Source: Fidelibacterota bacterium (lineage in GTDB: Bacteria; Fidelibacterota; Marinisomatia; SCGC-AAA003-L08; JACNLC01). Taken from it: a DNA stretch of 64,000 nucleotides. The DNA lies in NCBI GenBank assembly GCA_013204025.1, contig JABMOW010000008.1, forward strand, positions 1 to 64,000. The letters run 5' to 3'. Position numbers and translations under genes: made by a program. Below are positions 20,442 through 56,220 of this stretch, one piece after another. Each line of letters starts with the position of its first letter. The stretch's first letter is position 1. The notes beneath the pieces were generated by a model, which had not been told where the DNA came from, made no database searches, and saw only the letters and a list, made by a program, of their open reading frames with translations.

Positions 20442-20798
20442 TCATCGTGAAGGTTGCTCCTCAAGCGCCTTCACTCTTCCTTCCAATAGCGCATTAGATT
20501 GTGCTAAATCTTTTAAATTTTCATTGAGTTTTGACAACATTTGCTCCTGCCGAAAGATGACAAACAACAGCAGGATGGTGGAAATGAGGAACAATACTGA
20601 CGGTGGATAATAGATACCTACCCATTGAGAAATAATATCCAGCAATTTTGGAAAAATCGATAACAGGAAAATGGTGAATCCGATGAGCATCCAGAAAATA
20701 CTTAACTCTATTGAGAATTGATTTCGTTTTACCCGGAGAAAAACGTACACCATGACGATGATTCCAAATAGTGGCAGCATTATATTTTGAAAAGTCAT
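20442..20798 (-). CDS. DUF2304-type small membrane protein
   Basis: 118 residues with three hydrophobic segments (about 5-20, 32-50 and 65-85) and a C-terminal coiled-coil-like tail (EQMLSKLNENLKDLAQSNALLEGRVKALEE). This is the layout of DUF2304 proteins, which usually follow a dolichyl-phosphate-mannose-synthase-like glycosyltransferase, exactly as here; the start overlaps that gene's stop by four bases. Probably a membrane partner or anchor of the glycosyltransferase; biochemical role unknown. Confidence 0.8.
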   Translation of the reverse strand: MTFQNIMLPLFGIIVMVYVFLRVKRNQFSIELSIFWMLIGFTIFLLSIFPKLLDIISQWVGIYYPPSVLFLISTILLLFVIFRQEQMLSKLNENLKDLAQSNALLEGRVKALEEQPSR

Positions 20799-21559
20799 CT
20801 GGACTCCCCTTTCGTTTTGAATAAATGTTTTACCAGAATGATGAGGATGTTATACAATATCAGCATCATGTAATAAAACGATGAGTAAATATTTTCATGC
20901 ATTCCTTTCCCCGATAGCCGTTGTCTCATCTTCACCGGGATCTCGGTGACTTCGTATCCGCTAAGGATCATATCCACGATGAGATTCGCATCAGGGAATT
21001 GTGGGAAATACGGCATATCTGCGTAAAGTTGAACCACCCGTCTACTCAATACTTGAAAGCCGGAAGTGGGATCGTGAATGGACTGTCTGCAGAAAAACCG
21101 GATGAGTGATTTAAAAATTCCTGTCCCCAATCTGCGGATGGGCGAGTGAGGGTAATCCGATGCTTCCATAAATCTGGAACCGATAACAATATCCGCCTTA
21201 GTTGCCAGTACATGTTCGGTTAGTTTTAAGGCTTCAGAAGCGATGTGCTGGCCGTCTCCGTCAAATTGAATGATATAATCATAGTGGTTCTGATTCGCAT
21301 ATTTAAATCCGGTTTTCAATGCCAGAGAATAACCCACATTGAAAGGTAGTGAGAGTGTGTGGATATAATCCATTGTTTTCAGAAGAGCGGCAGTTTCATC
21401 AGTAGAACCATCATTGACCACCAGAATATCAAAATCAGGCAGATCTCTTTGTAATTCATCCACCACAGCAGGCAGGTTCTCTGCTTCATTGAAAACAGGG
21501 ATGATCACAAGAAATTGTTTTGAGTTAGACGATTTACTATTTTTCAATTTGTTCTTCAA
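20795..21559 (-). CDS. Family 2 glycosyltransferase, DPM1/polyprenyl-phosphate type
   Basis: GT-A fold: FLVIIPVFNEAENLPAVV, ILVVNDGSTDETAALL and the metal-binding QFDGDGQH motif, followed by GSRFMEASDYP and SGFQVLSRRVV. Closest in style to dolichyl/undecaprenyl-phosphate sugar synthases, which load a sugar on a lipid carrier for use by membrane glycosyltransferases. There is a plausible user next door: the PMT-like protein encoded divergently at 21710. The C-terminus ends in a hydrophobic stretch (FYYMMLILYNILIILV) that may contact DUF2304. Confidence 0.88.
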   Translation of the reverse strand: MKNKLKNSKSSNSKQFLVIIPVFNEAENLPAVVDELQRDLPDFDILVVNDGSTDETAALLKTMDYIHTLSLPFNVGYSLALKTGFKYANQNHYDYIIQFDGDGQHIASEALKLTEHVLATKADIVIGSRFMEASDYPHSPIRRLGTGIFKSLIRFFCRQSIHDPTSGFQVLSRRVVQLYADMPYFPQFPDANLIVDMILSGYEVTEIPVKMRQRLSGKGMHENIYSSFYYMMLILYNILIILVKHLFKTKGESR

Positions 21560-21709: not shown

Positions 21710-24700
21710 ATGTTTATAAAAAAAATACCAGCTAACCTATTAAAAGTCCTCTACTTCTGCAGCCTGCTTGCAGTCTTGGTTTTGGGCTTCTTTATCTATT
21801 CAAATACGTTTGACAATGAGTTCATATTTGATGACCGGAACATGATCGGCGAAAATCCGGTGATCAGGCAAATGGATATCCCCACAATTTTTAATCATAG
21901 TGATGGAAGGTTCATCGGATATCTCACATTCGCAGCCAACTTCCATTTCCATCAGTACGATGTGAAGGGGTACCATGTTGTCAATTTAGGCATTCATCTG
22001 ATAAATGGACTTCTGGTTGCTTGGCTGGTGCTATTAATCTCTAGATTACCCGCTTTTAAGTCGGGTACCCTTCATACTCACCGAATGAAGATCAGTATTT
22101 TAACAGCTCTGTTATTCATCACTCACCCGGTACAAACGCAGGCAGTTTCTTATGTGGTTCAGCGTTTTACCTCGCTATCCACGCTATTCTATGTGCTCAG
22201 TTTATGCCTTTATCTATGGGCAAGGATGGCTTCAATAGATGATCGTCCAAATTGGACAATCATACTTCGGTACATTCTCGCTTTTGCTGTCTTTATTATG
22301 GGCGTTCTGACAAAGGAATCTGTTTACACACTCCCGGTGATGATCGTGGTGATTGAGTTTGGATTCATCCATAATATCAAACTATCTCACATCCCCAAAT
22401 GGATTTGGGTGATGTGCACCGCTGTTTTCGTTTTGTTGCTTGCAATTGTGGTAAGATTTTACACCGTTTCGGATATTTTCTCTCCGGTATATGCCTATGC
22501 AATAGACGTGACCCTAAACAGTTGGACCTACTTTATCAGTCAATTTCCGGTAATGATTGGGTATATCCGTGTGCTTGCTTATCCGGCAAATCTGATTTTG
22601 GATTATGGGGTTATACCCGCAACATCCATTTTGAACGCCTATGTTTTATTGTCACTCGTAATTGTTATGCTGATCATCGCATCGGCTATCCGATACAAAA
22701 ACCGATTCCCGATTTTTTCTCTGGCAGTATTCTGGTTTTTCATTACACTATCTATTGAGAGTAGCATCATCCCTATAGCTGACCTCATGGTTGAGCACCG
22801 GTTGTACCTTCCCTCCATTGGCTTTTTTCTCTTGATGATTGTCACCGTATTTTCTTTATTCAAAGGCAGGTGGATCATTATTCCAATCATCCTCTTTTTC
22901 GGGTTGGCTGCAGAATATTCCCATCTGACGTGGGAAAGAAATAAAATATGGCAGGATGCTTTCACCATGTGGGATGACAACGTTGAAAAGACCCCTCTGA
23001 ATCCCAGACCGTATAGCTCCAGGGGTATCGAATACAGCGTTCGTGGCGAGTTAGAAAAAGGATTCGCCGATTTTAACAAAGCCATCGAGTTGAATCCCAA
23101 TTATGTGAATTCTCTGGGGAATCGTGGGAAATATTATCAATCCAAGGGAATGTTCAAAGAAGCCGCTTTGGATTATACGCGAGCGCTTGAATCTGACGCG
23201 GGTTACGAACATATCTGGTTGAATAATCGAAGTACGATTTATACGTCCATGGGTGAATGGAAATTGGCACTGGATGATGTAAATCAATCGATTGAGCTGA
23301 TCCCGGCGAACATCAATAATTATCTGAAGCGTGGAGATATCAAACGTGAATTAGGGGATTTTGAAGGTGCAGTCGATAATTACTCCATGGCACTACAACT
23401 GAACCCAAGTTACGGAATCGCTCTGTTCAACCGGATGAAAACATACCTGCTGATGAAGGATTTCAATCTTGCCCGGCGCGACTTTCAAACTTGTCTTGAC
23501 TGGCAACTCCCCATCGATATGAACTACATTCAGCAGGTGAATGATGAGTTAAACAATTATTTCGGGAATCTCTCTGAAAAGCCTAATATCCTACTCATTT
23601 CTACTTTTGGGATGGACACCCGACTATTGAAATATCTCGAAAATATCCCCACATTGCTAATGGATGAAGGTATCGTATTTGAAAATGCGTTTACCACAAC
23701 TCCTCAATACAATGGAGCTATGATGTCTCTGATAACAGGGAAGAACAGTCACCAGGCAGTTCAAGAAGACCTGTGGTATAATAAAATATTAGCACAGTCA
23801 ATGGATGACTCCACCCTTGCAACGGCATTATCTAATGCAGGATATAAAACGGTATTTGTGGGGAATTATTTTGATGGATATGCGGGAATGCCAAAATTTG
23901 AAGAGAAAATCCCGGACCCCGATTTCCCAATACCGTTGGAAGAAACAGAGCAAAATCCTTACGAATTTGGTATTCCACCCGGATGGACGCACTGGCATGG
24001 AATCACCCATTTTAACATGTCAAATGAACTAGTTTTCAATGATGACGGTAATACCGAAAGATATACATTTAGTGAAGAATTCATTCCGTTGAATGATTTG
24101 ATATTTGAAAGGGTGACACCCTTTTTACCCCGATCGAGCGCTCCGCTCTTCATGTGGATCAATTATCCATCTTTTCTTTCGTATAAAGCATATGACCCTC
24201 GTTATGATCAATCTGAAAATGAAAAAATTGAATACCAGATTGAAGATGATCTTTCGGATAAACCGCAGTATGTGAGAGAATTTGAAAGCTCAAACGCATT
24301 TACTAATGATCTGACAATGGAAGTAGCAAATACCTATTATAATCGACTCATCCGGCAATATCGTACATTTGACCAATTTGTCGGTATGATCATGGAGGAG
24401 ATAAATCGAATCGGGCAGACCGAAAATACAGTGATCATCCTGGTATCAGGAGTGGGTAGCGGAATCTCAAACCGATATCACTGGCAGACGTATTTGACAC
24501 CACATGATGAGACAATACGAGTACCCATGATCATGAAAGGACCCGGTATCATCAGTCAGAAGCGTATCCTGCAACCAACATCCATCATGGATATTTTTCC
24601 CACAATCATGGATTTGACACAAATCCAGCAGCCATGGCTTACCAATGGTAGGTCACTTCACGCGATGCTCAACTCTGGGGAAATTCCTGATAATCAGATG

Positions 24701-24952
24701 CACCGCGCCGTGTTCACCGAATTGTGGAATATCAGACATCATAAATGGAATTCCCTTCCCCCTAAATACCGGTTGTTCAGGACAGATGAGTATAAATACA
24801 TTGAATACGAGACCGGAGAAAGTGAGTATTACGATCTGAATTCCGATCCTGAAGAATTTGACAATTTATATTACATCTTAACCAAAGAGCAGAAACAAAG
24901 TTTGAAAGCAGAATTAATCAAACAACTTGGAAAAGGATTTTCTGAAAAATAA
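21710..24952 (+). CDS. PMT/TMTC-like membrane domain - TPR - degenerate sulfatase fusion
   Basis: Three parts in 1080 residues. (1) Residues about 15-420: ten or so membrane segments with an early acidic loop FDNEFIFDDRNMIGENP, resembling lipid-linked-sugar-using O-mannosyltransferase/TMTC proteins. (2) About 430-605: four to five TPR units (GELEKGFADFNKAIELNP, GDFEGAVDNYSMALQLNP). (3) About 620-1080: alkaline phosphatase/sulfatase fold from PNILLIST to EYYDLNSDPEEFDNLY. In part 3 the CxPSR nucleophile motif is replaced by YNGAM in PQYNGAMMSLITG, the first Asp pair by FG, and the later DHG metal motif by GVG, so it should be catalytically dead. Probable role in surface glycosylation. The stop overlaps the next start by one base. 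Confidence 0.82.
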   Translation: MFIKKIPANLLKVLYFCSLLAVLVLGFFIYSNTFDNEFIFDDRNMIGENPVIRQMDIPTIFNHSDGRFIGYLTFAANFHFHQYDVKGYHVVNLGIHLINGLLVAWLVLLISRLPAFKSGTLHTHRMKISILTALLFITHPVQTQAVSYVVQRFTSLSTLFYVLSLCLYLWARMASIDDRPNWTIILRYILAFAVFIMGVLTKESVYTLPVMIVVIEFGFIHNIKLSHIPKWIWVMCTAVFVLLLAIVVRFYTVSDIFSPVYAYAIDVTLNSWTYFISQFPVMIGYIRVLAYPANLILDYGVIPATSILNAYVLLSLVIVMLIIASAIRYKNRFPIFSLAVFWFFITLSIESSIIPIADLMVEHRLYLPSIGFFLLMIVTVFSLFKGRWIIIPIILFFGLAAEYSHLTWERNKIWQDAFTMWDDNVEKTPLNPRPYSSRGIEYSVRGELEKGFADFNKAIELNPNYVNSLGNRGKYYQSKGMFKEAALDYTRALESDAGYEHIWLNNRSTIYTSMGEWKLALDDVNQSIELIPANINNYLKRGDIKRELGDFEGAVDNYSMALQLNPSYGIALFNRMKTYLLMKDFNLARRDFQTCLDWQLPIDMNYIQQVNDELNNYFGNLSEKPNILLISTFGMDTRLLKYLENIPTLLMDEGIVFENAFTTTPQYNGAMMSLITGKNSHQAVQEDLWYNKILAQSMDDSTLATALSNAGYKTVFVGNYFDGYAGMPKFEEKIPDPDFPIPLEETEQNPYEFGIPPGWTHWHGITHFNMSNELVFNDDGNTERYTFSEEFIPLNDLIFERVTPFLPRSSAPLFMWINYPSFLSYKAYDPRYDQSENEKIEYQIEDDLSDKPQYVREFESSNAFTNDLTMEVANTYYNRLIRQYRTFDQFVGMIMEEINRIGQTENTVIILVSGVGSGISNRYHWQTYLTPHDETIRVPMIMKGPGIISQKRILQPTSIMDIFPTIMDLTQIQQPWLTNGRSLHAMLNSGEIPDNQMHRAVFTELWNIRHHKWNSLPPKYRLFRTDEYKYIEYETGESEYYDLNSDPEEFDNLYYILTKEQKQSLKAELIKQLGKGFSEK

Positions 24953-26301
24953 TGAAAAGTACAGCGCGCTATCCTAAAGTAAATACTGAAAAACTATCCG
25001 TAATAGGATTGGGAAAACTGGGACTATGCACGGCCGTATGTCTGGCGGATTCCGAGTATTCCGTATTGGGTATTGATAATAATTCCGATGTCATCACTAG
25101 CATTTCAAACGGAGTTTCTCCCCATGCAGAAACCGGTCTTCAGGAATTGCTGACTAAAGTAAAAGGACAGCTTTCTGTTCAGTTATCAGATTACAACGCT
25201 GCTATTGCCGATACAGATGTCACTCTATTGATCGTACCTACTCCTAGCATGGATAACGGAGAATTTTCCACAAAATATTTGGTGGAATCACTCAAACCTA
25301 TGGCTATTGCATTATCAGAAAGTAGAAAGCCGTATCATTTATTTGTGATTGTATCTACCGTCTCGCCAGGTACGTTGTTGGAAGAATTGATTCCCTTGGT
25401 GGAATTTCACTCCAGCCGTCAAATAAATAATGGATTTGGTATGTGCTATAACCCAGAGTTCATTGCCCTGGGGAGTGTGATACATGATTTCTTCAACCCG
25501 GATATGGTTCTGATCGGGGAGCATCAACCTTCCGATGGCGAAATATTAGAAGATATCTATCGTAATGTCTGTCGGAATCAACCCAAAATTTCCAGAATGT
25601 CTATTACCAGTGCTGAAATTACAAAAATCAGTTTAAATGCGTTTGTTACTATGAAAATCAGTTTCGCAAATACACTCACCAGCCTGTGTAATGGAATTCC
25701 AGACGCTGATATCGATAAAATTACGACTGCATTAGGAGCAGACAAACGGATTGGGAGCAATTTTCTTCGAGGTGGAACGCCTTTTGGTGGTCCCTGTTTC
25801 CCACGAGATAATCATGCATTTTCAGAATTTGCCAGACGACATGGATTTCAGGCGTTTCTTGCGGAAGCTACCGACCAGATCAACAATGCACACGCCTCTT
25901 TTATTATAGATAAAATTGATCAGATAATTAATGACAAATCGAAAACAATCGGGGTTTTGGGCTGTGCGTACAAACCAGGGACACCGGTTCTGGAAGAATC
26001 TTTTTCCATTGAATTGATCAGAAAGTTGATCGAAAAAAAATATTCGGTGACGGTTTACGACCCGATAGCGATGGATGGTGTTCGTGTAATATTAGGAAAT
26101 TCAATCAATTTTACCCAGAGTGTAAAATCATGCGTCGATGAATCTGATGTTATAATATTGACATTACCAGATCCGGCTTATTTTAAAATCGGAACCTATT
26201 TAAAGAAAACGTCTGGGAAAATTATTATTGACCTTTGGCGGATCCTGAAAGATAAAGATTTGTCTGAACATAAATATTATGCTTTGGGCAATTACAAATA
26301 A
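24952..26301 (+). CDS. UDP-glucose/GDP-mannose dehydrogenase family protein
   Basis: NAD-dependent four-electron oxidation of a nucleotide sugar to the uronic acid. Rossmann motif SVIGLGKLGLCTAVCLA; central domain lysine/asparagine signature ITKISLNAFVTMKISFAN; catalytic Cys282 in GGTPFGGPCFPRDNHAF; C-terminal second nucleotide fold IGVLGCAYKPGTPVLEES. Whether it acts on UDP-glucose, UDP-ManNAc or another sugar cannot be told. Translationally coupled to the PMT-TPR-sulfatase-like gene, which supports a shared role in making an acidic surface glycan. Confidence 0.88.
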   Translation: MKSTARYPKVNTEKLSVIGLGKLGLCTAVCLADSEYSVLGIDNNSDVITSISNGVSPHAETGLQELLTKVKGQLSVQLSDYNAAIADTDVTLLIVPTPSMDNGEFSTKYLVESLKPMAIALSESRKPYHLFVIVSTVSPGTLLEELIPLVEFHSSRQINNGFGMCYNPEFIALGSVIHDFFNPDMVLIGEHQPSDGEILEDIYRNVCRNQPKISRMSITSAEITKISLNAFVTMKISFANTLTSLCNGIPDADIDKITTALGADKRIGSNFLRGGTPFGGPCFPRDNHAFSEFARRHGFQAFLAEATDQINNAHASFIIDKIDQIINDKSKTIGVLGCAYKPGTPVLEESFSIELIRKLIEKKYSVTVYDPIAMDGVRVILGNSINFTQSVKSCVDESDVIILTLPDPAYFKIGTYLKKTSGKIIIDLWRILKDKDLSEHKYYALGNYK

Positions 26302-26315
26302 TCTGTACTTGCCTT

Positions 26316-27101
26316 CTAGGATTCTGGGAAGAATCTCCTGAAAAGGCGTTGAAGACGGAAGAATAATTCATCAGGCAGAATAGGTTTTATCATTTTTGTG
26401 ATAAATCCTATCCATAAGATTTTGCGAAGGTAATACCATTTCATTTCCCACGTGCCAGCGAACATTTGGGTTGTTTCCCAATACAATAAAACCGCTTTGA
26501 ATTCCTGATGAAAAATATCTCCACCGATCAGATAGGTATTTACCACAATAGGCAGGTATGACAACTCCGCTCCTTCAGAACTGGATTTCATCACAAAATG
26601 AAAATCGGAAGCAGGGCGGTATTTCGGGTCAAATCCGTTACTTTTCAGTAGAGATGCCCGGAAAAATGCTGCCTGATGGTTGAAAAAAGGTTTCCAAATT
26701 TCATCTGGTGGATGGGCTTTCACGATTCTGGTTTTTCCGTCGGGGTACCAGAACTGTGTATCTCCGTAAATAATGTCCACAGATTGATGAGCCCTTCCAA
26801 AAATTCTGGATATTACTCCGTTGTCGTAGAAAGAGTCTCCACTGTTCATAAAATGGATATACTCACCGGTTGCCAGTTCAATCCCTTTATTCATGGCGGG
26901 ATAGATTCCATCGTCTCGTTCTGAAATAATTCTGTGAATTTTCGTGCGATATTCATCTATGATTGAAAGTGTTGTATCTGTTGACCCACCATCGATAATG
27001 ATGTACTCAATATTTGACCAGTCCTGGCCTAAAACGCTCTCGATTGTACTCCGAATATTCGTTTCATCGTTGAGCACGACAGTCACAACAGTCATTTTCA
27101 T
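26316..27101 (-). CDS. Family 2 glycosyltransferase (WcaA/colanic-acid type)
   Basis: GT-A fold with MTVVTVVLNDETNIRSTIESV, IEYIIIDGGSTDTTLSII and a GDSFYDNG metal-binding region, followed by YGDTQFWYPDG, typical of colanic-acid-type GT2 enzymes. The ORF can open at 27152, but that would overlap the upstream gene by 35 bases and add 17 residues with no match to the family fold. The MKMTVV methionine at 27101 places the first beta strand as usual. No clear ribosome site decides this. Donor and acceptor sugars unknown. Confidence 0.8.
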   Translation of the reverse strand: MKMTVVTVVLNDETNIRSTIESVLGQDWSNIEYIIIDGGSTDTTLSIIDEYRTKIHRIISERDDGIYPAMNKGIELATGEYIHFMNSGDSFYDNGVISRIFGRAHQSVDIIYGDTQFWYPDGKTRIVKAHPPDEIWKPFFNHQAAFFRASLLKSNGFDPKYRPASDFHFVMKSSSEGAELSYLPIVVNTYLIGGDIFHQEFKAVLLYWETTQMFAGTWEMKWYYLRKILWIGFITKMIKPILPDELFFRLQRLFRRFFPES

Positions 27102-27117
27102 CGGAGGTTGTCTGATG

Positions 27118-29082
27118 TTACCATTCCGGGTAGCAGATTTGCCTCTGCTCATCCCAATGAAGTAGAGGGGGGATTCGATTCAATTCTGCATAGATTGTAC
27201 GGATCAGCGGTATTCGGAATCGATATCCGGGATAGAGCACAAAAGAAAGTAATCTTCGGATGAAAGGATGCGGTAATGATTGAGCATCAGAAATGTTATC
27301 ATTATCGGGACTGGCGTATTGATGAAGGGGTTCATTATTCGCTTGATGCACATCTGTAAAAGGTCGATCAATAGTTCGCAACTCTGTATGTTTTGCAAAC
27401 TCAAGCCAGAGATGAAACTCTGTAAACGATGAATTCATCAGGATATTATCCTTCGTCGTCTCCCACAAATGACGCTTAAAAATGACGTTGGAAAACCGAA
27501 GTGAATCGTTGATATTCTGGTTAGATAAACTTTGAAGTCGAGTTCGACTCCATCTGCACTGATCCTCACGAAGGCCGGAAATTCCCATGCCATTCAGCCA
27601 TTGAATATCCTGGCATTTGGTAAAAACCTCTGCAGCAATCATCGCAGTCTGTGATAAGATTTGTGCTCCTGTGTGGACAATCATGATCATTTCGGGATTC
27701 ACGTCTGTAATAATGTCATCGATGGCCGGACCAAGATTCTCTATTTTATCACGAAAATGCTCAATCTCACCGGGTAGATTCAATTCAATTTGTGGATTGG
27801 ATAAATCCAGTACTACATATTTCAGATTAGGATAGCTACATGTGCTGGTAATCTGTTGAATATCATCGGCGGAAACCTGATCGTAAACAGGTGTGATGAC
27901 CAACAATTTGGGATTTTTCTGCTGGAATTCCATATCGTTCTTCATCTTGTTAAATACGGTTGCTCCCATGTCTGTGGCTTTGTTGGCGATGAGATCATTA
28001 TAAATATTTTCATGTATGGATGCGGTCTGATAATAATAAAAATGACGGGGGAGAGGTTCGTCAATCACGAATTTTTTTCGAGTCAGGTTAATTTTATTCC
28101 CCGGTACATCATGAATCACATTCTGCATAGCTGGGATCATTTTCATACCAAATGATTGTTCAGCTTGTGTAGATCGCCGGGTGGTAAGGATAAACTCTGA
28201 ATTGATTGTATCCAGATCTTTTGTGCCGTAAAGATCCACAGTTAATGATGTGTTTCCCAAATTTGGTGCACGATGTTTGAGGCACTCCGGGAGCAATTCA
28301 AACCAAGCATCATACCGAGTGCAAAATTTCATAAAAGGCGCTAATAATACAGATGGAGATTCCATCGAAAGTGATATCTGAAATAGTCCCTGCCGATCGG
28401 CATGGGTTCCCGGGTCACCAAAATTGGTAGTGTAAGACTGCCGTGGAAAAACAAAATATCGATCCGTATCAATCAAATATTTGAAAAATATTTTTTTCCA
28501 TGAGGTCTCGGGCCACTGCTTCACATATTGAGGGAGGAGACTTTCCGTGCGTTTTTCGTGAGCTGTTAGCCACTGTTTGAAACCTTCCCATTGTTGTGCG
28601 GTCCAAGCTTGCCCCCAGGAAGATGGGACCTGCATAAAATACGTGGAGTACTCATCGTCAATGGGGACGAATGGAAAAAATCCGTTTTCGGTGATCTCAT
28701 ATTGGTACAGAGATAAACCAGCAATTTCGGTAACATCTTTGTAGAATTCAAGTGCATTGACAGCAAATTGATAAAAATACGGTGAAACCATGAGGTCATC
28801 TTCCAGCAAAATAATATTACCATATTTTTGAGTCAGGTCTCCGCAGTAGAAAACATGTTGTTTTAGCCCAAGATGATTCCAATGACAAATGATTTCTTTT
28901 GAACCGTGCGACCACTGAAATTCTGTTGCGATATCCTTTACACGTTCGTTTTCTCCTCCATCGATACTGATGATCAATTGAATAGAGTCTGAAGAAAACG
29001 ACGCTGTTTGAAGGGAAACCAGCAAGCGATTCAAACTATCCGGGCGGTTATATGCCACAACGATTATTGCGGGATTATTCAT
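27118..29082 (-). CDS. Two-domain glycosyltransferase-like protein (GT2/GNT-I-like N-domain)
   Basis: Residues 1-330 form a GT-A-type domain: PAIIVVAYNRPDSLNRLLVS, IISIDGGENERV and the metal-binding NIILLEDDLMVSPYF, with the look of GNT-I-like/GT2 proteins that act on surface glycans. From about residue 385 a second, more divergent domain begins (NPKLLVITPVYDQVSADD), also resembling the first half of a GT-A fold, but its expected DxD position reads VHTGAQ, so it may be non-catalytic. Length 654. Lies upstream of, and probably in one transcript with, the GT2 gene at 26316. Confidence 0.7.
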   Translation of the reverse strand: MNNPAIIVVAYNRPDSLNRLLVSLQTASFSSDSIQLIISIDGGENERVKDIATEFQWSHGSKEIICHWNHLGLKQHVFYCGDLTQKYGNIILLEDDLMVSPYFYQFAVNALEFYKDVTEIAGLSLYQYEITENGFFPFVPIDDEYSTYFMQVPSSWGQAWTAQQWEGFKQWLTAHEKRTESLLPQYVKQWPETSWKKIFFKYLIDTDRYFVFPRQSYTTNFGDPGTHADRQGLFQISLSMESPSVLLAPFMKFCTRYDAWFELLPECLKHRAPNLGNTSLTVDLYGTKDLDTINSEFILTTRRSTQAEQSFGMKMIPAMQNVIHDVPGNKINLTRKKFVIDEPLPRHFYYYQTASIHENIYNDLIANKATDMGATVFNKMKNDMEFQQKNPKLLVITPVYDQVSADDIQQITSTCSYPNLKYVVLDLSNPQIELNLPGEIEHFRDKIENLGPAIDDIITDVNPEMIMIVHTGAQILSQTAMIAAEVFTKCQDIQWLNGMGISGLREDQCRWSRTRLQSLSNQNINDSLRFSNVIFKRHLWETTKDNILMNSSFTEFHLWLEFAKHTELRTIDRPFTDVHQANNEPLHQYASPDNDNISDAQSLPHPFIRRLLSFVLYPGYRFRIPLIRTIYAELNRIPPLLHWDEQRQICYPEW

Positions 29083-29283: not shown

Positions 29284-30675
29284 ATGAATCCATGGGATTT
29301 GACCATCAATTTGAAAGATGTAGTTCTGGATATCCTCTATCTCAGCAGCTTTATTTTGATTGGGACAATTTTACGACGATATGTGAAATTTTTTCAAACC
29401 TACTTGGTCCCCAATAATTTTATAGCGGGATTTTTCGCTTTAGTTGTTGGTTCACAGGGATTGGGATGGGTTCACCTGGATCCCGAAAGACTCATCCTAT
29501 ACGTTTATCACTTCCTTGCTCTCACATTTATCGCACTGGGCTTGCGGAAAAGTAAATCCCATTGGGGGCGTGGTCCGTTCAGTAAAAGCATGAGCGCGCT
29601 GTTCTCGTACCTGTTGCAAGCGACAGTTGGATTGAGCGTGGCATTAATCCTGTTTTATACGGTAATGCCGGATATTTTCCCTGGAATCGGTCTGGTGGTT
29701 CCCCTAGGGTTCGGAATGGGACCTGGCCTAGCTGCAACGCTTGCAGGAAGTTGGGAAGAATATGGCTTCATAGGCGGCGCACAAGTGGGTCTCACATTTG
29801 CTACCATCGGATATGCATATGCATTCTTTGTGGGGATCGCTCTCATCCACTGGGGAATTCGGAAGAAAAAGATGTCGGTGATCAAAGATATTGACCATCT
29901 TACTCATGAAATTCGCATCGGCGTTCATAAACGAGGAGAGCTTCCCTCTGCCGGGAATCTCACGATGTACACAGAGGCCATCGAACCGTTGGCATTCCAC
30001 ATGGCTGCCGTGGGATTTATCTACTTACTTACGTACCTGATTGTGAGCAAGGTGACTGGCATGATGTACTCAGTAGGATTAGACCAATTTGTTCCCACGG
30101 TATGGGCCTTTCATTTCGTTGTTGGACTTATGCTGTCGCTATTTATTCGAAAGATCATGGATATGACGGATAAATCTTACCTCATCGATCATGGTCTAAT
30201 GACCCGTGGAATCGGGCTATTTCTGGATTATCTGATAGTGGGGGCTATTGCTGGGATCAGCTTTACTATTATGTCAAAATACTGGCTGCCAATACTCCTC
30301 ATGTCGGTAATTGCCGGCCCCGCAACCCTAGTTATGCTTTACTATTTATCTTACCGCGCATTTACCGATCACCATTTTGAACGGTTCGTTGAACTATTTG
30401 GAGAGATGACAGGCACCATTAATTCAGCATTGGTTCTGTTACGTATTGCAGACCCGGAGTTTGAGACCCCTGTAGCTGAAGATGCGGTAGTGGGGAGCGG
30501 AATTACCCTATTTCTGGGATTCCCATTGCTCTATGCCTTGAACATTCCTTTCGTTCATTTTGGGAATTCCATCCGTGGATATTGGGTCACACTTGGTGTT
30601 CTTCTGGCATATTGGGTGATACTGGCTGTGGTCTGGTATGCGTCCGGATATTTTAGATTTAAAAGGACCGTTTAA
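29284..30675 (+). CDS. GltS-like sodium/glutamate symporter family protein
   Basis: About eleven to twelve membrane segments. VPNNFIAGFFALVVGSQG and the mid-protein GFGMGPGLAATLAGSW correspond to the glycine-rich re-entrant region of the GltS family. SALVLLRIADPEFETPVAEDAV fits the second half of the internal repeat. True GltS proteins are about 400 residues; this one (463) is longer and divergent, so the substrate may be another dicarboxylate or anion. Ribosome site GGAAAGG. It converges on, and overlaps by three bases, the acyltransferase gene on the other strand. Confidence 0.7.
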   Translation: MNPWDLTINLKDVVLDILYLSSFILIGTILRRYVKFFQTYLVPNNFIAGFFALVVGSQGLGWVHLDPERLILYVYHFLALTFIALGLRKSKSHWGRGPFSKSMSALFSYLLQATVGLSVALILFYTVMPDIFPGIGLVVPLGFGMGPGLAATLAGSWEEYGFIGGAQVGLTFATIGYAYAFFVGIALIHWGIRKKKMSVIKDIDHLTHEIRIGVHKRGELPSAGNLTMYTEAIEPLAFHMAAVGFIYLLTYLIVSKVTGMMYSVGLDQFVPTVWAFHFVVGLMLSLFIRKIMDMTDKSYLIDHGLMTRGIGLFLDYLIVGAIAGISFTIMSKYWLPILLMSVIAGPATLVMLYYLSYRAFTDHHFERFVELFGEMTGTINSALVLLRIADPEFETPVAEDAVVGSGITLFLGFPLLYALNIPFVHFGNSIRGYWVTLGVLLAYWVILAVVWYASGYFRFKRTV

Positions 30676-31493
30676 TTTTCTTCTAGATCTGGGGGTAGCC
30701 CCATTTTCTCAGGTTGCTGAAGCAATTCAATGATTGCAGCCGCTAGTTTCCCTCCATGGAACCCATCCACGACACGGTGATCAAATGTACCTGATATTGG
30801 CATGATAGTACGGATGACGATCTTACCATCTCGAACCACTGGTTTTTCTTCTGCTTTTCCCATGATGATCACTGCAGGCAGGTTCGATCCAGGGAATAAT
30901 GCCGCGGTACCGGTAGTAAGTCCATGGGACCCGATATTGGTCAATAATACAGATCCAAATGCATCGTGAGTTAAACCGAAAGACCTGATTTCAAGTCCAA
31001 GCCCAGTGGTCATAAATTTCAGAATATTGAATAATATGTTTCTGAATGGCCAGGGAATGCTCAGCAAAATATGTTTGTTTTGCATCAATTTATTTTCAGA
31101 TCCTTTTCTAGCTTTTTGTGCCCGATCCCGAATTTCGTCGGCAATCTGAAATACTGTCTTTTTATGGGCATTTCGGATTTTGATACTGGTCATTTCACCA
31201 CCGTCACCTGCATTCACAGCTACCATCACGATCACATCTTTATGTGCAATGAGTCTACCGCGACAGACATATGCGTTCATCTCTGGTACATAAAATCCAA
31301 TCGCTCTTGCCAAAGCTGCTGTTGCCAGATGGGTAATTGTGATTCGGTTTTTCATCGCTCGCTGTTCAGCGATATATGCTAGTGCATTTGTCACATCAAT
31401 TTCCATCGTACCATGGGTGCGCCCGTCACGGGGTGGCTTGTATATGGCGGTGGAGATGACCCGCCAGGGAGTATTTAATCTATCCAGGCTCAT
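30672..31493 (-). CDS. Stand-alone 2-oxoacid dehydrogenase E2-type acyltransferase domain
   Basis: Catalytic-domain-only relative of dihydrolipoamide acyltransferases and CAT-like enzymes. The catalytic motif is intact: His239 in GTFDHRVVDGFHGGK. No lipoyl or E1/E3-binding domain is present in its 273 residues, and no E1 or E3 gene is nearby. It may therefore act on a free acyl-CoA or acyl carrier rather than in a pyruvate dehydrogenase complex. Acceptor unknown. Confidence 0.78.
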   Translation of the reverse strand: MSLDRLNTPWRVISTAIYKPPRDGRTHGTMEIDVTNALAYIAEQRAMKNRITITHLATAALARAIGFYVPEMNAYVCRGRLIAHKDVIVMVAVNAGDGGEMTSIKIRNAHKKTVFQIADEIRDRAQKARKGSENKLMQNKHILLSIPWPFRNILFNILKFMTTGLGLEIRSFGLTHDAFGSVLLTNIGSHGLTTGTAALFPGSNLPAVIIMGKAEEKPVVRDGKIVIRTIMPISGTFDHRVVDGFHGGKLAAAIIELLQQPEKMGLPPDLEEN

Positions 31494-46420: not shown

Positions 46421-47173
46421 ATGAATAATATTTTTGATTTGAATTACACGGGTAATCCCTTTCATTTCTATGGCATCCAGCATTTCAGCGCATTTGCTAT
46501 GATCATAGCCGTATTGGGTCTCATAATCCTATTCAAACGGTTTCGTTATACGAGGAGTATTGAGGTGATCCGGTATACGTTGGCATTAGGGATTATCCTC
46601 AACGAACTGGGATGGCATTTATGGGCAATATTGCACGGCGAATGGAATATACAAACTGCACTTCCTTTACATCTTTGCAGCATCATGGTTTATCTGACGC
46701 CCATATTATTGATCCGAAAGTCTTATCGGATATATGAACTAATCTACCTATTGGGTGTTGCGGGAGCTATGCAGTCGTTATTTACGCCAAATCTAACCAC
46801 TTATGGATTTCCTCATTTTTTATACTTTCAGTTCTTTATATCTCATGGCTCCATCATTCTTGCCGGATTATTCATGACTATTGTGGAAGGATACCGCCCG
46901 AATCGTAATTCTGGTCTTCGAGTATTTTTGACAGGGAATGTATTCATGGTAATCGTGTTTTTTATCAATCGGGTGATTGGCAGCAATTATATGTTTGTCT
47001 CTCACAAACCTCTTACACCCAGCCTGCTTGATTATCTGGGACCGTGGCCATTTTACATCATCGGGATCGAAATATTTGCAATACTTTCCATTACGTTACT
47101 TTATCTGCCGTTTATTAAAAACAGGTCGAATCAATCAGACTCACAATATCTTGGAGAGGAAGCTGTTAACTAA
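46421..47173 (+). CDS. TIGR02206/YwaF-like integral membrane protein
   Basis: 250 residues with seven membrane segments. ELGWHLWAILHGEWNIQTALPLHLCSI is the characteristic TIGR02206 signature with conserved His and Cys; GSNYMFVSHKP and the following LDYLGPWPFYI also fit. Function of the family is unknown. Divergent from the kinase gene, with a 170-base shared promoter region. Confidence 0.82.
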   Translation: MNNIFDLNYTGNPFHFYGIQHFSAFAMIIAVLGLIILFKRFRYTRSIEVIRYTLALGIILNELGWHLWAILHGEWNIQTALPLHLCSIMVYLTPILLIRKSYRIYELIYLLGVAGAMQSLFTPNLTTYGFPHFLYFQFFISHGSIILAGLFMTIVEGYRPNRNSGLRVFLTGNVFMVIVFFINRVIGSNYMFVSHKPLTPSLLDYLGPWPFYIIGIEIFAILSITLLYLPFIKNRSNQSDSQYLGEEAVN

Positions 47174-52801: not shown

Positions 52802-54151
52802 CTAATCGTTATTGGTATTGGTAAGTTTACTCTTGAGAGTTGAGACGGGGATGCCAAGTATGCGGGCTGCTTCAGCTTTGTTCCCATTGGCTTTATTGAG
52901 GGCTTCCTGTATTAAACCATATTCATATCTTGAGACATTATCAGTCATGTTGACATTCGTTGATTGCTTCTCAGTTGTACGAGAAAATCGTGGATTTCCT
53001 TCCAAAATTTCGAGGGGCAAGCACTCTGGCTCAATCGGATTGCATTTGCAAATAATAGAAAGACGCTCAACAAGATTCTTTAGTTCTCTAACATTACCTT
53101 TCCAATTATAATCAATCAATATAGACATAGTTTTATCGCTAATTAGAATTGGCTCAATGGAATATTCTTTAAAAAAATGGGTTAGAAGTAAGGGTATATC
53201 CTCCCGTCGATCGATGAGAGGTGGAAGTTTAAGTGGAAACACATTCAATCGGTAGTACAGATCTGAGCGAAAACGGCCTTCCTCTACAAGCGTTAAGAGA
53301 TTGACTTTAGTGGATGCCAATACTCGTGTATCAACAGGAATTATTTCTGTGCCGCCGACTCTTTCAATGACTTTTTCCTGCAACACACGGAGCAATTTTA
53401 CTTGTGATTCAAGTGGAATATCATCTACATCATCGAGAAAGATAGTACCACCTCTCGCCAGCTCAAAACGGCCGATTTTGCGCTGATGGGCACCAGTGAA
53501 AGCCCCACGCTCATGCCCAAATAGTTCACTTTCCAATATATCTTTTGAGAGCGCTGCACAGCTAACCTTGACCAATGGGTTCTTTGATCTATGACTATTA
53601 TGATGAATAGTATCCGCCAGGATTTCCTTTCCAGTACCGGTCTTTCCTGTAATCAAGACTGTCACATTCTCAGGTGCTACGACAACAATCTGTTTATAAA
53701 CTTTTAACATCACGGAACTTTTTCCGATGATCTTGCCAAACGAGTAGCGTTCTTTCAGTTGAGATCGAAGAAATTTATTCTCTTTATTTAATTGAATTAG
53801 TTCCTCAATATGATCAAGAATTTTTTTCAGTTCATCAAATTCGATCGGTTTAGTCAAATAATCATAAGCACCGAGATGAATTGCTTCTACGGCATTTTTA
53901 ATTGTTGCGTAGGCTGTCATTATTAATACTTCACCGCCTATACTGTGTTCCTTAATTTTACTAAGGAGTTCTATCCCACTCATCCCTGACATTTTTAAAT
54001 CGGTCAGAATTACGTCAAACTGATTCCTTTTAAGTACATCAAGTGCCTGAATCCCAGATGCACAAATCTCAACCTCATGTCCGAAGTCTTTTAATTCATC
54101 GCGAATTGTTATACGCTGTATTTCTACATCGTCTATTACCAGTATTCTCAT
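52802..54151 (-). CDS. Sigma-54-dependent response regulator (NtrC family) of the second Mo-enzyme locus
   Basis: 449 residues: receiver with phospho-acceptor Asp51 (VILTDLKMSG), AAA+ with Walker A TGKTGTGKE, sigma-54 contact loop GAFTGA and TIFLDDVDD Walker B, and a Fis-type helix-turn-helix NGNKAEAARILGIPVSTLKSK. Overlaps the kinase-MobA gene by four bases, so they are a cognate pair. A sigma-54-like promoter and tandem dyads lie between this gene and the porin operon. Confidence 0.92.
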   Translation of the reverse strand: MRILVIDDVEIQRITIRDELKDFGHEVEICASGIQALDVLKRNQFDVILTDLKMSGMSGIELLSKIKEHSIGGEVLIMTAYATIKNAVEAIHLGAYDYLTKPIEFDELKKILDHIEELIQLNKENKFLRSQLKERYSFGKIIGKSSVMLKVYKQIVVVAPENVTVLITGKTGTGKEILADTIHHNSHRSKNPLVKVSCAALSKDILESELFGHERGAFTGAHQRKIGRFELARGGTIFLDDVDDIPLESQVKLLRVLQEKVIERVGGTEIIPVDTRVLASTKVNLLTLVEEGRFRSDLYYRLNVFPLKLPPLIDRREDIPLLLTHFFKEYSIEPILISDKTMSILIDYNWKGNVRELKNLVERLSIICKCNPIEPECLPLEILEGNPRFSRTTEKQSTNVNMTDNVSRYEYGLIQEALNKANGNKAEAARILGIPVSTLKSKLTNTNND

Positions 54152-56220
54152 CTCATCCTATTTAGATATTTTTTACCGATTTTTTCAGCTAATGAAAGGT
54201 CCCCTGGTGTATTCACATTATGCAATAGTGATACGGTCTCTGGAAAATCAGAATTACTGATGTTGATTATATGGGCTCCGGATTCAGTGATCAGGTCGTT
54301 GATACTATATTTTCCCGCATTGATCCTCTTTTCAATCAGAGGGATCAACTTACAACTGTATACAGCACACAATGGTTCTATGCCTCGACCGGCATCTACA
54401 GTACAAACATCATATCGTGGACCCTCCCGACATAGTAACTGTAGAATCTCGGATGAAATCAATGGCAGATCACATGCTACGATAAGACAATGCGTAGAAC
54501 GGCAGTTTTTGAGGGCCGTATAGATACCACCTAGTGGACCTATATTTTTAATAATATCGGTGTGCATCGACAAGCCCAAGAATTTATATACATCAGTGTT
54601 GTCTGCAATGAGAAGGGGATTTTCAATACAGCTTGACATCACCTGATACACCCATTCTATAAGAGCCATTCCATTTACCTGCTTCAAAGCCTTGTTTGCC
54701 CCCATTCTACTGGATTTTCCACCAGCTAATATTGCACCGCAGGTTACTGCCCAGTTATCATCGACCGCCGATGCATGGGGAAAGTCGAGAAAAAATAAAG
54801 TACCGTTCCCAAGGTTACTCTCAACACGGATGCTCCCATCGTGCCCAGACATAATGTTTTGACAAACTGCCAACCCCAAACCAGTTCCCTCTCCCTGGGT
54901 CTTTGTGGTAAAAAATGGATCAAATATTTGATCCAGATTATGCGGTGCAATCCCGATACCATTATCCTCGATTGATACAAATACATTTTTAGAATTGTAA
55001 GATGTTTGGATATTGATTTGACCATTCACAGACACAGCATGGACGGCATTGAGAATAAGATTAATCAAAACCTGTTCAAGTTGCTCCTGATCACCCAGTA
55101 TATGAGGAGATTCGGCACTTAAATTAAGCTGTAATTCAACCTGCTTCTCAGATAATTGAATTTCAAGAATACGGGTTGCATTCTGTATGACTTGGTTGAT
55201 ATCAACTGCCTTTAAAAGAGGATCCTTGGCACGAGAATAATCCAGTAATCCACCAACAAGGTTCTTGATCTGGTGCAGTGAATTCTCCATCAGACCGATA
55301 TACTGAGCAGTTTGTTCTTTATCTACTTGATCAGCCTTAATTCTTTTTAAACAGGTTATCACACCACCAAGCGGATTATAGATCTCATGAGCCAATCCGG
55401 CTGTTAGAGTACCAATAGCGGCTATTTTTTCGGTACGAATCATAGCAAGTTTCGATTTTTCCTTTTCCAGCCCTGACCTGTGAAGTCTGCCCATCATATT
55501 TAAAAATCCTTGTTCCAGGAGGCCGATCTCATCTCTTCTATTTGAGGTGAATCCTGGCTGGAAGTCTGTATCCGATACTTTTATCATTTCATCTGCCAAC
55601 TTCTTGATTGGTTTTGCAAGAATCCTAGCAACCGCTACAGCTACAAGAATTCCACCAAACAACGCAAGAACAGTGAATACCAGTAATTTCAAACGCCACG
55701 CAGCGAGATATTCTAACTCAGATTCCAGGGAGAAATAGATGAACAATACTCCAAACGATTTTCCATGGACATGCAGGGGAATGATAGTCTCGAGTTGCTG
55801 GATCTTGCCACGCTTCAGATGTGTAGTTTGCATCTCATCTGTCTGACATTTATCTAATCTACATTCAGACATCGCTTGATAGTCGTACCAAGTATAATTG
55901 CTTGCGGCAATAGTATGGCAATCCCTATCAACAACCGCCATTTCAAGTACAGCAGCATCTTTATTCTTCAAAAGATCCGCCATCTGATTCTCAAGTAAAC
56001 CTCCTTCTTCAAGAAGTCCGATTTCCTCATACAACAAAGTGTTTGTGAAAGAAACGGCGGTGGATATGGAAACAAGTTGAGCACGCCGTTCTGCTTCAAA
56101 CATGTGGGATTTGAATTCCGTCCGATACAGATACATGTTCATAAAAACAGAAATAAGAGTCACGATCACGGCTGCCAGGGATATGAACTTGACCTCCAGA
56201 TTGAAAGATACTCTTTTCAT
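54148..56220 (-). CDS. Sensor histidine kinase fused to MobA-like molybdenum cofactor guanylyltransferase
   Basis: 690 residues. Membrane helices at about 11-30 and 178-200 enclose a small extracytoplasmic sensor containing C-x4-C (SECRLDKCQTDEM) and a His. HAMP, HisKA (His in LAHEIYNPLGGVI) and HATPase (DNGIGIAPHNL, GEGTGLGLAVCQ) follow. From about residue 492 there is a full MobA domain: GAILAGGKSSRMGANKAL (GTP loop), IGPLGGIYTAL, VACDLPLI (metal Asp) and a C-terminal NVNTPGDLSLA. The joint (FPHASAVDDNWAVTCGAILA) is in frame and has no ATG, GTG or TTG start, so MobA cannot be translated separately from there. MobA attaches GMP to molybdopterin to make the MGD cofactor that the downstream oxidoreductase needs. 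Overlaps the regulator gene by four bases. Confidence 0.9.
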   Translation of the reverse strand: MKRVSFNLEVKFISLAAVIVTLISVFMNMYLYRTEFKSHMFEAERRAQLVSISTAVSFTNTLLYEEIGLLEEGGLLENQMADLLKNKDAAVLEMAVVDRDCHTIAASNYTWYDYQAMSECRLDKCQTDEMQTTHLKRGKIQQLETIIPLHVHGKSFGVLFIYFSLESELEYLAAWRLKLLVFTVLALFGGILVAVAVARILAKPIKKLADEMIKVSDTDFQPGFTSNRRDEIGLLEQGFLNMMGRLHRSGLEKEKSKLAMIRTEKIAAIGTLTAGLAHEIYNPLGGVITCLKRIKADQVDKEQTAQYIGLMENSLHQIKNLVGGLLDYSRAKDPLLKAVDINQVIQNATRILEIQLSEKQVELQLNLSAESPHILGDQEQLEQVLINLILNAVHAVSVNGQINIQTSYNSKNVFVSIEDNGIGIAPHNLDQIFDPFFTTKTQGEGTGLGLAVCQNIMSGHDGSIRVESNLGNGTLFFLDFPHASAVDDNWAVTCGAILAGGKSSRMGANKALKQVNGMALIEWVYQVMSSCIENPLLIADNTDVYKFLGLSMHTDIIKNIGPLGGIYTALKNCRSTHCLIVACDLPLISSEILQLLCREGPRYDVCTVDAGRGIEPLCAVYSCKLIPLIEKRINAGKYSINDLITESGAHIINISNSDFPETVSLLHNVNTPGDLSLAEKIGKKYLNRMR

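Follow-up and report, generated by a model that had tools for sequence, protein, structure and literature searches.

Why should a membrane protein that resembles a glycosyltransferase end in a sulfatase domain that has lost its catalytic residues, and what could such a domain be kept for? The question is raised by a gene at 21710..24952 (+) of the window, by which we mean the whole stretch of 64,000 nucleotides analysed here. The gene is a continuous open-reading frame of 1080 aa in three parts. The first is an eleven-TM, TMTC/PMT-like GT-C domain (21710..22948 (+), residues 1–413), delimited by predicted helices and loop charges, the second a TPR array predicted to lie on the periplasmic side (22949..23557 (+), residues 414–616), which matches Pfam TPR_1 (E 1.4e-23) and forms helical hairpins in the model, and the third a dead S1 (GNS-like) sulfatase domain (23561..24949 (+), residues 618–1080), recognised by PF00884, PF16347, its fold match and its place in the tree. 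Pfam sets the TPRs at residues 435–600, Sulfatase (PF00884) at 643–972 (E 1.4e-22, above cut-off) and SGSH_C (PF16347) at 932–1073 (E 1.2e-14); the dead domain is bounded by PNILLIST at one end and EYYDLNSDPEEFDNLY at the other. The order of glycosyltransferase, TPRs and dead sulfatase, which the initial annotation had read from the letters, is borne out by the open frame, by the Pfam domains and by a homologue of the same architecture. The chain looks like a new architectural variant of what appears, from its sequence, to be a TMTC-type GT-C transferase.

The membrane part and its relatives

Helix prediction and loop charges point to 11 TM and a cytoplasmic N-terminus, with a first outer loop of 49 residues and a TM7–TM8 loop of 57 residues, a topology which would place both the TPRs and the pseudo-sulfatase in the periplasm. 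The first outer loop carries an intact D41-D42 motif (21830..21835 (+)), the putative GT-C catalytic/metal site, which is invariant in 16/16 aligned family members; R67, H96, H139-P140, R152, K202 and E362-H363 are also invariant in the alignments, and the DD, R, K(E) and EH motifs are invariant or nearly so across the TPR-bearing relatives. TMTC proteins are described by the motifs DD (EL1), RxD (EL2), KE (EL3) and ERxxY (EL5) (PMC7801869), and the window protein has this set as D41 D42, R152, K202-E203 and E362-H-R-L-Y366, the last with its Arg shifted by one. With the human TPR-bearing GT-C O-mannosyltransferases TMTC1-4 and with the bacterial TPR-bearing GT-C relatives it shares 11 TM, the N-in orientation, outer TPRs, the long TM7–TM8 loop, the DD in the first outer loop and the R, KE and ExxxY motifs. 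It differs from them in having no DUF1736 match, in E-H-R in place of E-R, and in the 460-aa dead sulfatase that follows the TPRs.

The description as a membrane glycosyltransferase stands in so far as relatives and motifs carry it; a direct Pfam match for the window sequence does not add to it, as none was found before the TPRs, and DUF1736 (PF08409) did not match the window gene. Aligned relatives match PMT_2 (4.8e-7) and PMT (2e-5), and we therefore call the domain TMTC-like and not TMTC. A paralogue in the same genome matches PMT_2 above cut-off. The top matches listed in the fold search of residues 1–616 were TPR proteins only, so that structure comparison did not confirm GT-C, and when the sequence of the TM part was compared with solved structures, matches fell only at the TPR edge; the GT-C assignment of the window protein is a probable one, drawn from its relatives and motifs. 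Five other TPR-bearing relatives are encoded in the same genome, all without a sulfatase part, which means that the basic reaction does not depend on the sulfatase domain and tells against the binding role proposed below. TPR-bearing GT-C-like paralogues stand in tandem in this genome, three at G000:C101 and two at G000:C76 (L043, L042), none with a sulfatase domain.

The three-part architecture itself is rare. A full-length profile recovered it in 2/245 Neomarinimicrobiota genomes and in 0/388, 0/384 and 0/396 genomes of the phyla to which an Opitutae, an Omnitrophota and a Bacteroidota genome respectively belong, that is in only two of about 1,400 genomes searched. Scoring covered the two or three top candidates of each genome, so that rare cases may have been missed. 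TPR-bearing GT-C-like proteins without the sulfatase part are common in the Opitutae-, Omnitrophota- and Bacteroidota-phylum genomes. The second carrier (G003) is of another genus within the same Neomarinimicrobiota family, and its full-length protein of 1078 aa is likewise dead, which answers the search for further cases that the initial annotation had proposed. Its public record, JABHXA010000008.1 of Candidatus Neomarinimicrobiota SI047_bin25, was identified by a contig scan with the two-sequence alignment; the same scan of genome contigs with the window protein alone as query gave no match. In the literature searched, nothing relevant turned up on pseudo-sulfatases or on the fusion of a sulfatase with a glycosyltransferase.

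Loss of the catalytic sites and descent of the domain

Three losses had been named earlier, and sequence comparison confirms them all: the metal-binding Asp pair (23606..23611 (+)) is now F633-G634 (Y-G in the homologue), the CxPSR nucleophile motif (23708..23722 (+)) is Y667-N-G-A-M671 (YNSAF in the homologue), so that the formylglycine motif C/S-x-P-S/A-R is absent from both proteins, and the metal-binding D-N/H of S-D-N/H-G (24449..24454 (+)) is G914-V915, followed by G (A-S in the homologue). We found three more: the catalytic Lys of the GKY/GKW motif (23864..23866 (+)) is N719 (E in the homologue), the active-site His of the APHxP motif (24176..24178 (+)) is L823 (His kept in the homologue), and the late active-site Lys (927/928; 24488..24493 (+)) has given way to T927-Y928 (G-D in the homologue). 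Of the 51 comparison sulfatases, nearly all of the same phylum, 50 have the metal Asp, while the Cys, the Arg and the Lys are each found in 49.

The losses are concentrated at the catalytic sites. Five active GNS-like sulfatases agree with one another at 66 positions; of these the window protein keeps 0/9 catalytic residues (Ca-binding Asp/Asn and active-site Lys/His/Arg) and 32/57 of the others (Fisher p 0.002), which bears out the view that the scaffold was kept while catalysis was lost; the homologue keeps 1/9 and 34/57 (p 0.01), with Y, G, Y, F, E, H (retained), A, S and D at the nine sites. Among the compared positions are those that in S1 sulfatases contact sulfate and metal. The clade-specific motifs PPGWxxW, ExDxSxKP and GPGI persist in both members despite the catalytic losses. 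From these replacements, sulfatase activity of the three-part protein is not expected.

Both proteins have diverged to a similar extent along their whole length. They share 44% identity over the full length and 41% in the sulfatase part (amino-acid identity 0.41 for the sulfatase, 0.47 for the TM and 0.43 for the TPR part), and differences at the three codon positions are 0.49/0.32/0.66 in the dead domain, 0.47/0.27/0.65 in the TM part and 0.47/0.33/0.67 in the TPRs, indicating that the dead domain is under selection similar to that on the rest of the protein. Since the same architecture with corresponding losses is found in so distant a relative, the dead domain appears to be kept for some non-catalytic job.

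The fold is that of an S1 sulfatase. An AlphaFold2 model of residues 618–1080, built on a shallow alignment of six sequences, has a mean pLDDT of 68.6 and a pTM of 0.75; Foldseek matched it to S1 sulfatases, best to the GlcNAc-6-O-sulfatase BT4656 (5g2v, E 4.5e-21, TM 0.71), and a two-sequence profile found the same best solved relative (E 1e-24). Structure prediction, which had been suggested as a check on the reading of the fold, thus recovered a sulfatase and no other fold. The window protein and its homologue group together in the tree with support 100/100, and the pair joins the GNS-like sulfatases from Fischerella, from Rubrobacter and from three viral-collection contigs (support 100/99), apart from most other Neomarinimicrobiota sulfatases and on a long stem of 2.67 changes per column; some branches are long, and the exact sister of the pair is unsure. 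For the relatives without a solved structure the label GNS-like is presumably apt, by resemblance to the motifs of human GNS. With the GNS-like S1 sulfatases (Fischerella BAZ71100.1, Rubrobacter WP_166180599.1 and BT4656 5g2v) the dead domain shares the fold, the C-terminal region, PPGWxxW, ExDxSxKP and its tree placement, but differs from them in having no catalytic residues (one His is kept in the homologue) and in its fusion to a glycosyltransferase. Fold and tree together trace the C-terminal domain back to an active S1 sulfatase of the GNS-like type.

Two other origins were considered and set aside. Descent from the S1 sulfatases of the phylum itself is not supported by the tree, and a phosphoethanolamine-transferase/LtaS type was rejected as the domain matches S1/GNS-type sulfatases by profile, fold and tree. 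The only other sulfatase-superfamily protein found in the same genome is LtaS-like, and the pseudo-sulfatase used as a query against the viral contigs gave no match. Elsewhere in Neomarinimicrobiota, two sulfatase-like proteins (L019, G014:C9:26798-27991; L073, G081:C138:10117-10641) lack the catalytic Cys, Arg and Lys in the alignment and may be further dead sulfatases, although L073 is a long branch of unsure alignment; their open frames of 471 and 424 aa are too short for a glycosyltransferase fusion.

Neighbourhood and possible role

Upstream of the three-part gene, a small DUF2304 membrane protein (20442..20798 (-); PF10066, E 2.9e-25) adjoins a GT2 (20795..21559 (-); PF00535, E 1e-24), whose nearest matches are polyprenyl-phosphate-sugar synthases (NCBIfam PpgS, E 5e-23, the best, and AglJ, E 1e-16, neither of which reaches the curated cut-off). 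Downstream lies a nucleotide-sugar (UDP-glucose-type) dehydrogenase (24952..26301 (+); TIGR03026, E 1e-91, above cut-off), the start codon of which shares one base with the stop codon of the three-part gene (TAATG), the two genes being 5 bases apart in the second carrier. It is followed by a WcaE-like GT2 glycosyltransferase (26316..27152 (-)), assigned by profile matches, and by a 654-aa GNT-I/GT2-like glycosyltransferase (27118..29082 (-)) with weak GNT-I/GT2 matches, a gene of about 650 aa which, among five genomes of the family, was found only in the two three-part carriers (G000, G003). DUF2304, GT2, dehydrogenase and WcaE-like GT2 are all conserved in place at the homologue locus, and seven genes stand in an order common to both genera: DUF2304 and GT2 (-), the three-part gene and the dehydrogenase (+), the GT2 and the ~650-aa glycosyltransferase (-), and a transporter-like gene (+). 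The upstream flanks of this block differ between the two genera.

Other genes of the window are recorded for their own sake. A lone 2-oxoacid dehydrogenase acyltransferase catalytic domain lies at 30675-31493 (-), and a similar gene occupies the same place beyond the transporter-like gene at the homologue locus (L041 17723-18538). A TMEM164-family protein (PF14808, E 9e-56), of an animal-named family in a bacterium, is encoded at 46421-47170 (+), and a sensor histidine kinase (HAMP-HisKA-HATPase) with a C-terminal MobA-like NTP-transferase fusion at 54151-56220 (-), close to genes for molybdopterin oxidoreductase and for Nar-type nitrate reductase.

We infer a polyprenyl-sugar-dependent periplasmic glycosyltransferase in which the pseudo-sulfatase would serve as a non-catalytic acceptor- or glycan-binding module, a reading that we consider evenly poised between right and wrong. 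The GT2/DUF2304 pair would make a polyprenyl-phosphate-linked sugar, which the TMTC-like GT-C enzyme, working on the periplasmic side of the inner membrane, would take from its carrier and pass to an acceptor that the TPRs hold in the periplasm. The dead sulfatase would serve for binding or docking, its most likely partner being an acceptor glycan or glycoprotein, and would so direct the glycosyltransferase to the right target. Binding of a sugar, a glycan or a protein acceptor is possible, and because BT4656 is a carbohydrate sulfatase solved with a sugar substrate, a sugar-binding cleft could be reused. The initial suggestion that the pocket recognises phosphate or sulfate is not supported: the residues that would hold the sulfate and the metal are gone from the window protein, several now aromatic or hydrophobic (F/Y633, Y667, M/F671), and with all nine compared catalytic residues replaced, some by aromatics, specific sulfate or phosphate binding at the old site is unlikely. 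This reading of the pocket draws on the two sequences that have the three-part architecture.

The partly aromatic and hydrophobic replacements may also be a sign that the pocket is filled and the domain purely structural. The dead sulfatase would then be a scaffold, stabilising the TPRs, spacing the enzyme from the membrane or mediating contacts in a dimer or with a partner, and the old pocket would bind nothing. The bulky substitutions at the active site in both members, the complete loss of the metal ligands and the long stem branch, a sign of strong change after the loss, all favour such a role; however, a 460-residue domain with conserved GNS-type motifs would be costly as a mere spacer, and TPR-bearing GT-C relatives manage commonly without one, so that we regard a scaffold-only domain as rather unlikely.

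A regulatory role has a precedent. PbgA/YejM/LapC is an inner-membrane protein, linked to LapB, with a periplasmic sulfatase-fold domain that is non-enzymatic according to some authors, a point in dispute (PMC7576196, PMC11025326), and beyond PbgA/YejM we found little described on sulfatase-fold pseudoenzymes. By this analogy the domain would bind an envelope lipid or glycan and signal its sufficiency to the transferase, as PbgA/YejM does for LPS synthesis. However, PbgA/YejM/LapC is a 5-TM regulator with an LtaS-type domain, whereas the three-part protein has 11 TM resembling a glycosyltransferase with intact motifs, TPRs and a domain of S1/GNS type, and the PbgA/YejM profile NF038282 scores it at 32.7 bits, far below its cut-off of 825; we judge a sensor improbable. 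Less probable by a wide step is a domain still enzymatic through a new active site that needs no metal: the two members share some new residues at and near the old site (Y667, N668, A670, G634), and these could in principle be catalytic, but the metal ligands, the formylglycine precursor, the Arg and the Lys are all replaced, in most cases by different residues in the two members. Recent local decay of a fused enzyme that had been active, for which nothing beyond the losses themselves speaks, is hardly credible and was rejected, since the sole homologue of the same architecture, in another genus and at 41% identity, is dead at 8/9 sites, the frame is open, codon-position constraint is similar throughout, and no fused homologue with intact catalytic residues was found.

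For the preferred reading, of a glycosyltransferase guided by a non-catalytic binding module, the meaning lies in what the dead domain may reveal. Uncultured bacteria commonly encode TPR-bearing GT-C transferases, and a dead sulfatase that is fused to one of them and conserved offers a way to learn what such a transferase recognises and how a degrading enzyme can be recruited into a building pathway. We tentatively go further, as a suggestion that we believe somewhat more apt to fail than to hold, and propose a new class of Neomarinimicrobiota periplasmic protein/glycan glycosyltransferase in which a former sulfatase acts in cis as a lectin-like acceptor-recognition module. If this were true, the protein would offer a direct view of a sulfated-glycan hydrolase turned into the specificity domain of a glycan-building enzyme.
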